Below are positions 49,987 to 57,913 of a stretch of 64,000 bases of DNA, in pieces. Source of the DNA: Carboxydothermus hydrogenoformans Z-2901 (lineage in GTDB: Bacteria; Bacillota; Z-2901; Carboxydothermales; Carboxydothermaceae); NCBI RefSeq assembly GCF_000012865.1, contig NC_007503.1:62001-126000 (forward strand), read 5' to 3'. Each line of letters begins with the position of its first letter. Position 1 is the stretch's first letter. The notes under the pieces are model-generated. The model was not told the origin of the DNA. It was given only the letters and a program-made list of their open reading frames with translations, and did no database searches. Position numbers and translations under genes: made by a program.

Positions 49987-50631
49987 ATGGAAATTTTCTT
50001 AGACACCGCCAATATTGAGGAGATAAAAAAGGGAGCAAGTCTGGGAATTATCTCCGGAGTTACTACCAACCCTTCCTTAATTGCCAGGGAAGGCAGGGAC
50101 TTAAAAGAAGTAGTAATGGAAATCGTAAGCCTTATTGATGGACCGATTTCCGCCGAGGTTATTAGCCTTGATTATGAAGGGATGGTCAGGGAGGCGGAGG
50201 AGTTATCAAAACTTCATCCCAATATTACCATAAAAATTCCCATGACCTGGGATGGTATCCGGGCGGTAAAAACCCTTTCCTCAATGGGGATAAAAACTAA
50301 TGTAACTTTGGTTTTTTCGGCAAACCAGGCCCTGCTTGCGGCCTTAGCCGGAGCTACTTTTGTCAGCCCCTTTGTGGGAAGGCTTGATGATACCGGGCAT
50401 GACGGCGTTTATTTAATTGAAGAGATTAAAACTATTTATGAAAATTATAACTTTAAGACCAAAATCATAGCGGCAAGTATCCGGCATCCGTTGCACGTGA
50501 CCCAGGTGGCTAAAGCCGGGGCGGATATTGCAACGGTACCCTTTAAAGTTTTAACCCAAATGTTTGCCCACCCTCAAACCAAGGAAGGTATTGAAAAATT
50601 TTTAGCCGACTGGCAAGCTATGAAAAGATAA
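49987..50631 (+). CDS. Transaldolase/fructose-6-phosphate aldolase family protein
   Basis: A 214-residue small transaldolase (TalC/MipB/FSA type). Opening [16 protein letters not shown] and TTNPSL, then the Schiff-base Lys in IKIPMTWDG, and the ending [18 protein letters not shown]. Such proteins act as transaldolase or as fructose-6-phosphate aldolase; sequence alone does not separate them. Co-transcribed with fba, so linked to sugar-phosphate interconversion. Confidence 0.93.
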
Positions 50632-54456: not shown

Positions 54457-54545
54457 TGTCGAAATAGTAAGGAATAGCTTGACAGTAAAATAAACAATTC
54501 AGTAAAGTAATTAGCAAGATAATTTATTAGTATTAATAATAAATT
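54457..54545 (+). promoter_or_regulatory. Control region upstream of the globin-sensor gene
   Basis: The spacer 54385-54624 has no gene. It contains the 0A-like box TGTCGAA (54457-54463), TTGACA (54479-54484) with TAAAGT (54503-54508) at 18 bp, and the perfect inverted repeat AATTTATTA / TAATAAATT (54521-54529, 54537-54545). The leader is about 110 nt and could form another weak stem; no known riboswitch was recognised. Confidence 0.5.
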
Positions 54546-54624: not shown

Positions 54625-55377
54625 ATGGAAGACAGCGTTCTTTTGAGCCGTTACCAGGAAACCTTAAGTTTTTTGAATTTAACGGCGGAAGACCTGCAAT
54701 TAATGGCCGAATTTAAAGAGTTATTTATCCAAAAAGCTCAGGAGTTTGTCAATAAATTTTATCAACATTTAACTAAATTTCCATATTTACAGGAATTAAT
54801 TAAAAAACACAGTACCGTTGAGAAGTTATCCAAAACCCAGGCGGAGTATTTTATTTCATTAACCTCGGAGAAGATTGATGCTGATTATATTAAAAACCGC
54901 CTGGCAGTCGGGAAAAAACATATGGAAATTGCCCTTTACCCCAACTGGTATATAGGGGCATACCGTTTATATTACGAAGTTGTCGGGGAATTGGTAGCCC
55001 GGAAATATTCTCCCGGCACGGAGTTGTATTTTAAGGCGGTAAATGCTTTTTACAAACGAATTAATTTTGATATCCAACTGGCGATCGAAAATTATATTGC
55101 CGAGCAATTAAAATACTTGGCAGCGATTCAAGAGCAGGTAGCGGATGCTGCCGGCTTTATTTCCTCGATTGCCACAAAAACAAATATTTTAGCCTTGAAT
55201 GCGTCAATTGAAGCGGGAAGAGCGGGGGAACACGGCCGGGCTTTCGGCGTAGTGGCCCAGGAAGTGCGCAAACTGGCTCAGGAGTCTTCCAAAGTTGCTA
55301 AAGAAATAACGGAAATGATTAAACATAATATGGAGGAAATAGAAAAAATTCGCCGGCAGAATAGCGGGATGATGTAA
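54625..55377 (+). CDS. Globin-coupled sensor with short chemoreceptor-type signalling tip
   Basis: A 250-residue soluble protein. Residues 1-165 form a sensor globin. The expected proximal His is H99 in [19 protein letters not shown], a globin-coupled-sensor signature, so it should bind haem and sense O2, CO or NO. Residues about 172-240 form only the hairpin tip of a methyl-accepting domain ([35 protein letters not shown]), too short for the usual methylation helices or a HAMP domain. It ends 1 bp before an HD-GYP gene. No other chemotaxis gene lies in this window, so it may signal to its neighbour rather than to CheA. Confidence 0.87.
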
Positions 55378-55378
55378 G

Positions 55379-56584
55379 ATGGTTACTTTCAATCGTTTTA
55401 ATTTTATAAAAAATATGTCCAAAGCGTTAGATTTAAGTATGGAGGGGTTGCAGGACCATCATCGGCGGGTGGCTTACATTGCTTACCGTTTGGGAGAAAG
55501 GTACAATTTAACGCCAACACAAAAGCGGGATTTGGTGTATTTGGGCTTAATTCATGATATAGGAATTTTAAGATGGGATGCCAATGATGAAAGAATCCGG
55601 CAAATAGCGGAAAATGAGTTTGAACATTGCCGGCGGGGGGCACTTATTTTAAAAAATTCTTATTTCGACCATTATGCCAGGTATATTTTCAGTCACCACG
55701 ACCATTATGTCGGAAAAAACCCGTCGGGTCTTACGGGAGAAGAAATACCCTTACTTTGCAGGGTGTTGTTTTTGGCCGATAGAATAGCGGTGAATTTTAA
55801 TCCTGAAAGCTGTATCCTGGAAAAGGTGAAATATTGGCGGGAATACTTTACTAAGCGAAAAATTTTTGATCCCCGTCTTTTAGAGGTGTTTTTTGAACTA
55901 GCGGAAGCGGAAGAATTTTGGCTAACCCTGGGCGATAGCGATATTTTAAATCAACGCTTGGAGGAAATTGGTTATGCAGAAGAACTAATAAATTTACCGG
56001 ATATGATTGGTTTAGCGGAATTATTTGCTAAGCTTGTAGACCATAAGTCCCGGTTTACTTTTTTCCATTCGCAGTTAGTAGGGGAAATTGCGGAATATTT
56101 AGGAAAAGTTTTAAATTTTGGCCAAGAGGATGTTAGCTTTCTTAAAATAGCCGGACTTTTACATGATATAGGTAAAATGTCCGTTCCCGAAAGTATTTTG
56201 GAAAAACCCGGGGACCTTACCGAAGAAGAGTTTTTGTGTATGAAGAAACATAGTTTTTACACTTACTATCTTTTAAACGGGGTGTTTCCGGAAAAAATAG
56301 TAAAAGTGGCCGCCTATCATCACGAAAAACTTGATGGCTCGGGATATCCCTTTAAGAAAAAAGGCGAGGAATTGGGCTTTGAGGAGCGTTTGCTGGCGGT
56401 TATCGATATTTTTGTTGCTCTTTTGGAAGAGCGGCCGTACCGCAAAGGGCTTGACTACCGGGAGATTAAAGGTATTATGGAAGAGATGGGACAAAAAAAT
56501 AAAATTGATAGGGAATTAGTGCGGGTTGTCCTGGATAATTACCCGGAGTTACAGGCGATAAAGAAAAAACTTAGTGAAGCCTGA
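55379..56584 (+). CDS. Dual HD-GYP-type protein, C-terminal domain probably active
   Basis: A 401-residue protein. An N-terminal degenerate HD-GYP-like half (HDIGILRWD, SHHDHYVGKNPSG, about 59-125) lacks the full motif set. The C-terminal half has LLHDIGKMSVPESILEKPGD, KKHSFYTYYLL and HHEKLDGSGYP (about 260-330), a canonical HD-GYP phosphodiesterase. It would break down c-di-GMP. It begins 1 bp after the globin sensor stop, so they form one operon and are probably functionally linked. Confidence 0.88.
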   Translation: MVTFNRFNFIKNMSKALDLSMEGLQDHHRRVAYIAYRLGERYNLTPTQKRDLVYLGLIHDIGILRWDANDERIRQIAENEFEHCRRGALILKNSYFDHYARYIFSHHDHYVGKNPSGLTGEEIPLLCRVLFLADRIAVNFNPESCILEKVKYWREYFTKRKIFDPRLLEVFFELAEAEEFWLTLGDSDILNQRLEEIGYAEELINLPDMIGLAELFAKLVDHKSRFTFFHSQLVGEIAEYLGKVLNFGQEDVSFLKIAGLLHDIGKMSVPESILEKPGDLTEEEFLCMKKHSFYTYYLLNGVFPEKIVKVAAYHHEKLDGSGYPFKKKGEELGFEERLLAVIDIFVALLEERPYRKGLDYREIKGIMEEMGQKNKIDRELVRVVLDNYPELQAIKKKLSEA

Positions 56585-56641
56585 AAAAAGTTTTTTTGGC
56601 AGCAATCTCCTTTTTTCCGGGGAAAGCTAAACACAAAAGAC

Positions 56642-56756
56642 TTGACGAAAGGGGTTATCCGTTTAAAATTAAAGGGGAAGGTCTGACATAATTGCCAAAG
56701 AGTGGGGCGGTAAACGAAAATTAAAAGAAAGGGGGAAGCGGTTTTAAAAACCGCTT
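56642..56756 (+). promoter_or_regulatory. Promoter and hairpin leader for the 56763-57913 operon
   Basis: TTGACG (56642-56647), 16 bp, TAAAAT (56664-56669). A perfect hairpin AAGCGGTTTT-A-AAAACCGCTT (56736-56756) lies between the ribosome site GGGGG (56731-56735) and the ATG at 56763. Formed, it would bring the site to about 6 nt from the start codon. Confidence 0.55.
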
Positions 56757-56762
56757 TGGGAA

Positions 56763-57101
56763 ATGAACGCCAGCCGTACTGCTGAATTAAATATAAGGTT
56801 GACCGAATTTGAAGTACCGCCTGTTCAGGATTTTCTGGTCATAGGAAAACGGGCTCCAATTGGTATTGAAGCTTTTGGCAAAATGGTTGAATTTATTTCC
56901 CCCAACCAGTATAAGGCTATTCGGCTGAATCACGAAAAATTTGAAGGGATAATTATTAGAAAAAATTTCCTCAATGTAATGGAGGAAGAGTTATTGATAT
57001 CGGCAATCTTAGTAGAAGTGGATGCCATTTCCGATGAAAGTTCCATTTTCAAGGGAAGTTTAAACATAATGCTTAATATCAAAAAGGAGATTGAAATATG
57101 A
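56763..57101 (+). CDS. Small hypothetical protein
   Basis: A 112-residue soluble protein I do not recognise. It is predicted as mixed strands and helices (FLVIGKRAPIGIEAFGKMVEF, then KFEGIIIRKNFLNVMEEELLI), with no signal peptide or membrane part. It overlaps the CBS-GGDEF gene by ATGA, so the two are co-made. A sensing or adaptor role for the diguanylate cyclase is only a guess. Confidence 0.6.
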   Translation: MNASRTAELNIRLTEFEVPPVQDFLVIGKRAPIGIEAFGKMVEFISPNQYKAIRLNHEKFEGIIIRKNFLNVMEEELLISAILVEVDAISDESSIFKGSLNIMLNIKKEIEI

Positions 57102-57913
57102 TTAAACAAGTACGGGAAGTAATGACCAGAAATCCGGTAACCATTGAGCCGTACAGGAGCTTATGGGATGCCAAGGAACTTATGCGTTCGCAAAGGATTG
57201 GCGGGCTACCGGTGGTAGAAAATGAAAAGCTAATAGGCATAATCACTTCAAAGGATTTAATATTTTATCCGGAAAATCGGCTGGTTATTGACGCCATGAC
57301 CGAAGAGCCGGTGGTCATTGAAGAAAAAGCATATTTATTTGACGCATATCAAAAAATGCTGGAAAATAACATCGAAAGGCTTCCGGTAATAGATGAGTCC
57401 GGTGCGCTTACGGGTATTATAACGAGGAAGGTAATTGAACGGTATATTGGGTCTTATATAGATTCGATGACCGGGTTACCCAAAAAAGAGTATGCTATCT
57501 ATAAATGTCTTAAATTATTGGAGCGGGGAAATTCTTGTACGGTGGCTTTTATCGATTTAAATAATTTTGGGGAATTAAATAAGCGTTACGGGCATGTAGT
57601 AGGTGACCAAATTTTATTAAAAGTTTCTGGAATATTAAAACAGTTAGGGGAAGATGTTACCGCTGCCCGCTACGGTGGAGATGAATTTATTTTAATCCTG
57701 CCCTATGACGAAGTAAAAACAATTAACCTTGTGGATAAACTGTTATTTCTTCTGGAAAATGATAAATGGCCCTATGATTTAAAGGTCCAGTGTGCGGTGG
57801 GAGTAAAGGAGATTAGACTTAAAGAAAAAGTCGATATTATCGAAGAAGTTTTTGCCAGTATCAACGAAGCAAGCTTAAAATGTATAGATAGGAAAAAGGA
57901 GATTAAAACATGA
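57098..57913 (+). CDS. CBS-pair/GGDEF protein, probable diguanylate cyclase
   Basis: A 271-residue cytoplasmic protein. Two CBS motifs (1-125; VMTRNPVTIEP, AMTEEPVVIEE) form a Bateman module that typically binds adenine nucleotides. The GGDEF domain (about 128-270) opens with DSMTGLPKKEYA and has the active site RYGGDEF (GGDEF at 193-197). No RxxD inhibitory site is present at the expected place, so product feedback may be lacking. Coupled to the hypothetical gene upstream. Nucleotide sensing by CBS is inference. Confidence 0.9.
   Translation: MIKQVREVMTRNPVTIEPYRSLWDAKELMRSQRIGGLPVVENEKLIGIITSKDLIFYPENRLVIDAMTEEPVVIEEKAYLFDAYQKMLENNIERLPVIDESGALTGIITRKVIERYIGSYIDSMTGLPKKEYAIYKCLKLLERGNSCTVAFIDLNNFGELNKRYGHVVGDQILLKVSGILKQLGEDVTAARYGGDEFILILPYDEVKTINLVDKLLFLLENDKWPYDLKVQCAVGVKEIRLKEKVDIIEEVFASINEASLKCIDRKKEIKT

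Follow-up and report, generated by a model that had tools for sequence, protein, structure and literature searches.

A minimal globin chemoreceptor gene paired with a predicted HD/HD-GYP phosphodiesterase gene in Carboxydothermus

Introduction

The closest described relatives of the locus reported here differ in where they place the sensor and its output. HemAT of Bacillus subtilis (PDB ID: 1or4) is a soluble protoglobin with a Tyr/Thr/Leu/His pocket and a chemoreceptor (MCP) output in the same chain. YfmS of B. subtilis (modelled with CheW in 9a72) is a short soluble chemoreceptor; to our knowledge it has neither a globin domain nor an HD-GYP partner. V-cGAP3 of Vibrio cholerae (5z7c) is a 3'3'-cGAMP phosphodiesterase with two HD-like domains. 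In Vibrio fluvialis a globin sensor and an HD-GYP phosphodiesterase form a single chain (GCS-HD-GYP), for which O2 is an activator while CO and NO are not (PMC10882959), and Bhr-HD-GYP of Ferrovum is a single chain that links an O2/redox-linked hemerythrin sensor to HD-GYP (PMC8846402). Separate haem gas sensors with c-di-GMP enzymes encoded apart have also been published, namely H-NOX proteins with DGC/PDE partners and the HnoX-HnoK-HnoB system (PMC8846402). A two-protein gas-to-c-di-GMP switch, which a sequence-only reading of the present DNA had considered new, is therefore anticipated both by these systems and by the single-chain globin-HD-GYP protein (PMC10882959).

Here we describe a locus in which a 250-residue globin receptor (P0001) and a 401-residue HD/HD-GYP protein (P0002) are encoded side by side. 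P0001 shares the pocket, solubility and same-chain output of HemAT, but of the complete kinase-control module of HemAT, with its methylation helices, it has the tip hairpin only, and a phosphodiesterase gene follows; YfmS is also among its structural matches by Foldseek. As in V. fluvialis, a globin sensor is linked to an HD-GYP phosphodiesterase, but here through two genes, which add a chemoreceptor tip to the sensor and a further HD domain to the enzyme. The H-NOX systems differ in fold, in their NO ligand and in their biochemically shown direct or kinase-mediated contacts, whereas the present association is one of genes. Over the greater part of its length P0002 most closely resembles V-cGAP3, in sequence as in fold, but differs from it in keeping all metal ligands in the first domain. 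Like the Ferrovum protein, the P0002 family has a connection to hemerythrins, although these are encoded by stand-alone genes that adjoin it. No published description of this globin-tip/HD-GYP pair was found in the literature searched.

Results

Organization of the gene pair

The window, by which we mean the whole 64,000-nucleotide stretch of DNA analysed, lies in a Carboxydothermus genome of 2,401,520 bases. The two genes are separated by one base (Table 1), as the sequence-only reading had stated, and this stop-G-ATG spacing is kept in both other Carboxydothermus genomes (C. islandicus and G002), so that the pair is intact in 3/3 genomes of the genus examined. No terminator-like site was found at the junction on the strand of the two genes, and between positions 50000 and 62000 of the window no RNA element reached the gathering threshold. 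Purifying selection acts on both genes (NG86 dN about 0.04-0.07 vs dS 0.27-0.35, measured against C. islandicus). That P0001 is a truncated pseudogene is ruled out by this selection together with 22 relatives of similar length.

Table 1. Features of the locus and of related loci; positions are those of the window unless preceded by a locus label.
Feature	Position	Strand	Basis
Promoter-like site TTGACA-18-TAAAGT, 5' of receptor gene	54479..54508	+	consensus match only
Minimal globin chemoreceptor P0001, 250 aa	54625..55377	+	protoglobin (residues 8-161) plus bare kinase-control tip hairpin (residues about 158-246)
Tyr46 codon (= HemAT Tyr70)	54760-54762	+	ungapped 1or4 alignment
Leu68 codon (= HemAT Leu92)	54826-54828	+	ungapped 1or4 alignment
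Thr71 codon (= HemAT Thr95)	54835-54837	+	ungapped 1or4 alignment
Proximal His99 codon (= HemAT His123)	54919..54921	+	ungapped 1or4 alignment
Receptor/enzyme junction, TAA-G-ATG	55375..55381	+	sequence: stop, single base, start
HD + HD-GYP protein P0002, 401 aa	55379..56584	+	Pfam HD_5, alignment, AF2, Foldseek
HD domain of P0002, residues 27-134	55457-55780	+	alignment
Decayed second HD-GYP gene, 48-bp remnant, reads LDERGYPFKIKGEGLT	56638..56685	+	92% identity over 48 bp to intact G002 gene, E 3.5e-15
112-aa protein, between pair and CBS-GGDEF gene	56763-57101		conserved after pair in C. islandicus
CBS-CBS-GGDEF protein, intact GGDEF motif; neighbour outside core pair	57098..57913	+	Pfam CBS, GGDEF
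c-di-GMP-I riboswitch in G002, between pair and second HD-GYP gene	L088 3454-3541	-	87 bits
Hemerythrin genes upstream of P0002-like genes	L113 978-1373; L119 1034-1447; L193 1653-2207

The globin sensor and its ligand

Residues 8-161 of P0001 match Protoglobin (PF11563, 1.7e-33), with no Pfam match to an HNOB (H-NOX) domain in the sensor, and when the AF2 model (mean pLDDT 82.8) is compared with known structures by Foldseek, the best match to the globin fold is HemAT (rmsd 1.3). The two sequences align with an offset of 24 and without gaps through the haem pocket, where His99 falls on HemAT His123, its known proximal ligand; the other pocket residues have their roles assigned from HemAT. His99, Tyr46 and Leu68 are invariant across 23 short globin-tip proteins. 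The model continues as a helix (133-199), a turn and a second helix (201-246), and P0001 thus has the proximal His, the distal Tyr and the same-chain output through a continuous H-helix that define a globin-coupled sensor, in agreement with the earlier assignment of His99.

Members of the genus Carboxydothermus oxidise CO, and the sequence-only reading had listed CO, NO or O2 as candidate ligands with a hint towards CO. Because the pocket is HemAT-like (Tyr46, Thr71 and His99), O2 is the likelier ligand, so that part of the list is kept and the hint is not. We infer that P0001 binds haem and a diatomic gas, most likely O2. Some caution on ligand assignment is called for, as HemAT without its haem can also sense ethanol (PMC7542364).

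A bare chemoreceptor tip

Residues 160-241 of P0001 match MCPsignal (1.5e-24), although over only 82 of 172 profile positions, and the tip superposes on the receptor in the Escherichia coli core signalling unit (6s1k_E) with an rmsd of 1.3 over 95 columns. In comparison with Tsr, the tip retains every residue used in CheA/CheW and trimer contacts but the one at the F373 position. The arms of the hairpin are about 42 and 46 residues long (~6 heptads each); the kinase-control tip is present, and the full coiled coil with methylation helices is absent. A receptor of this size, with such arms and no methylation helices, is at most a candidate for joining an array. The tip is accordingly as short as had been proposed, but the suggestion that the output might lie only on a separate protein finds no support, given its retained CheA/CheW-binding hairpin.

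The short globin-tip proteins examined (<300 aa) come from 23 genomes in seven families, Carboxydothermus included. At the 20 other short-tip loci, the two ORFs on either side never include an HD-GYP gene, which speaks further against a sensor lacking its own output and also counts against a general link between tip and enzyme. CheW is present in 29/29 checked genomes with a globin receptor; we dropped this co-occurrence as proof of CheA coupling, since 337/398 genomes of the phylum (85%) have CheW, which makes it compatible and not decisive.

The HD/HD-GYP enzyme

P0002 carries two metal-binding sites, one in its HD domain (H27, H59-D60, H83, H106-H107 and D134) and one in its HD-GYP domain (H230, H262-D263, H291, H314-H315 and D343). 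The description of the gene as a dual HD-GYP gene holds for the second domain only, in which GYP is found at 322-324; the first has the metal ligands but reads NPSGL at the corresponding place. Across 62 relatives, neither domain varies at any of its seven metal-ligand positions. The first HD domain of P0002 and these relatives is thus one with a full invariant metal site and no GYP, for which a second active site or iron/redox sensing are candidate roles.

In domain 2 the position of the third-metal Glu of PmGH, a residue not required for membership of the HD-GYP family, is F226, which is nearly invariant in the family, and a dinuclear metal site would be expected from these residues. The AF2 model of P0002 (pLDDT 91.2) has V-cGAP3 as its best Foldseek match, and the sequence matches are 6.5e-43 (V-cGAP3) and 1.5e-32 (PmGH, 4mcw). 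P0002 is predicted as likely to hydrolyse c-di-GMP, and because its best structural relative is V-cGAP3 we keep 3'3'-cGAMP as a possible alternative substrate. A paralogue in the same genome (54% identity) adjoins a PAS-GGDEF-EAL gene.

Conservation of the pairing

Beyond C. islandicus, a pattern-based contig scan with P0001 returned just an MCP tip that is unrelated, and the census of pairing therefore rests on whole-genome searches in its place. Protoglobin lies above the cut-off in 48 of 398 genomes of the phylum. In one further family (f4) the gene for a 415-421-aa HemAT-like receptor is followed directly by an HD/HD-GYP gene in five genomes of three genera; a P0002-type enzyme occurs in 34 of the 46 f4 genomes searched (seven of nine genera), and a globin receptor gene lies upstream of it, on the same strand and within about 700 bp, in 26/30 loci read. 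Eighteen of these 26 gaps are within about 105 bp, some genes touching or overlapping (both spacing figures are by-eye counts from the locus table). The pairing spans genera whose enzymes are as little as 53% identical, and adjacency, the absence of which outside the genus had been named as grounds for refutation, is thus found there with a different globin lineage. At one f4 locus (L203) two HD/HD-GYP genes stand in tandem behind a single globin receptor gene.

The globin tree nests the Carboxydothermus sensor in the short-tip clade (96/93) and places the f4 receptors outside it. A single clade of Carboxydothermus and f4 globins is rejected (p 9.4e-6), and with it, on the globin side, the idea that all pairs descend from one ancient pairing; the enzyme tree is undecided, and the test did not reject one clade uniting the corresponding enzymes and the paralogue (p 0.72). 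Since the globins do not form one clade, the pairing arose at least twice on their side: at least two globin lineages came to adjoin this enzyme family, with independence shown for the globins only. By gene order, the sensor and enzyme genes form one conserved unit.

Hemerythrins and other neighbours of the enzyme family

HD1 (P0002-like) matches occur in 310 of 398 genomes beside many different neighbours. A same-strand upstream neighbour lies within 150 bp at 49 of 90 HD/HD-GYP loci; by Pfam these include six rubrerythrin-family, four FUR, four GGDEF and three hemerythrin proteins, and one further neighbour is an Fe/Mn superoxide dismutase. Oxidative-stress neighbours are thus seen as rubrerythrin (L108, L125, L140, L142, L144), FUR (L122, L141, L147, L148) and superoxide dismutase (L191), the FUR cases all coming from a single family and five of the six rubrerythrin cases from a single family of their own count.

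Stand-alone hemerythrin genes lie directly 5' of P0002-like genes in three families (f16, f107 and f49), and in each of the three genomes the adjoining gene is the sole hemerythrin match. With 107 hemerythrin matches in the 79 genomes searched, ~0.04 enzyme adjacencies are expected by chance vs three observed, assuming about 2,700 genes per genome as estimated from genome size. The adjacency was noticed before counting, and we treat it as a lead.

Flanking genes and riboswitches

The intact HD-GYP gene downstream of the pair in G002 (HD_5, 1.3e-36) is represented in the window by a remnant, and a second phosphodiesterase gene was probably present at the ancestral locus. The 112-aa protein matches no family in Pfam or NCBIfam. 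Directly 5' of the short globin receptor gene, both C. islandicus and family f111 encode a NIR_SIR-type protein and a 146-150-aa protein (L074 3936-5099, L068 5519-6697), an arrangement absent from the window.

The genome contains seven c-di-GMP-I riboswitches. They precede an HD-GYP-motA-motB-MCP-CheW-CheA operon, a flagellar rod operon and a CheR-MCP-CheW-CheB-CheA operon, and others precede a short MCP gene and an HD-GYP gene (CheB, MotB and CheY were identified by sequence reading, the other che and motility genes by Pfam or CheW search). From these positions, c-di-GMP is placed to control the same genes through which the chemoreceptor would act.

Discussion

With riboswitches lying ahead of che and flagellar operons, the simplest account of the locus is that P0001 and P0002 constitute one small O2/motility module with two outputs, a reading to which we assign a probability of roughly 0.5. 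The globin would bind a diatomic gas, most likely O2, between distal Tyr46/Thr71 and proximal His99; ligand binding would shift the G/H-helix bundle of the P0001 dimer, and the continuous H-helix would pass this shift into the bare tip, which would signal through cellular CheA/CheW clusters. Co-expressed P0002 would hydrolyse c-di-GMP or a related cyclic dinucleotide, the level of which would be read by the riboswitches ahead of flagellar, motor and che operons. The presence or absence of O2 could thereby steer swimming quickly and set the motile or sessile programme slowly. Since this kind of pairing also arose with a different globin receptor in another family, both genes probably act in a single oxygen/motility response. 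What survives of the sequence-only reading is the conserved unit of sensor gene and phosphodiesterase gene; the missing output, the novelty of the switch and the CO hint find no support.

The main rival is the direct two-protein switch proposed in the sequence-only reading, in which P0001 would dock onto P0002 and its ligand state would set the predicted phosphodiesterase activity; this is possible but doubtful. It draws on the junction kept in the genus, on f4 loci with 0 bp or an overlap between the genes (L220, L221, L224, L225), on pairing with two different globin lineages, on the Rosetta-stone hint of the V. fluvialis fusion (PMC10882959), on the hemerythrin genes beside the same enzymes in three families, and on the existence of a hemerythrin-HD-GYP fusion (PMC8846402). 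Yet each of the two receptor types already has its own chemoreceptor output, an HD-GYP neighbour is missing from most short globin-tip genes, and gaps of 240-670 bp part the genes at several f4 loci. Somewhat less likely still is the general form of this idea, in which the receptor tips (minimal in Carboxydothermus, HemAT-like in f4) bind the neighbouring enzyme and gas sets its activity, stand-alone hemerythrins doing the same with theirs; if true, it would give a chemotaxis receptor a CheA-independent second-messenger output.

That the genes are mere neighbours, adjacent or co-transcribed with no functional link, is improbable. P0002-like genes are indeed common and variously accompanied, and the genes upstream of the pair in C. 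islandicus are not those of the window, but the pairing persists in three Carboxydothermus genomes and in f4 genera with divergent enzymes, it involves two globin lineages, and both genes are under purifying selection. Least probable is a variant in which CO or NO is the gas that the globin signals to the phosphodiesterase or CheA. Besides the genus's metabolism it can claim the nitrite/sulphite-reductase-like genes preceding some receptor genes, against which stand the O2-binding HemAT residue set of the pocket and the activation of the fused globin-HD-GYP protein by O2 only (PMC10882959).

The interest of the locus stems from the need of strict anaerobes to escape or withstand O2, since little is known of how they couple O2 sensing to c-di-GMP. 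Globin chemoreceptors of two lineages and hemerythrins of three families beside one HD/HD-GYP family provide concrete, testable pairs, and globin-tip proteins of 250 residues are a very small natural class of chemoreceptor, useful for structural work. If the tip regulates the enzyme, this would be a chemoreceptor output not described in the literature we found; if it does not, a single operon would still supply chemotaxis as well as the riboswitches by which c-di-GMP controls the same motility genes.
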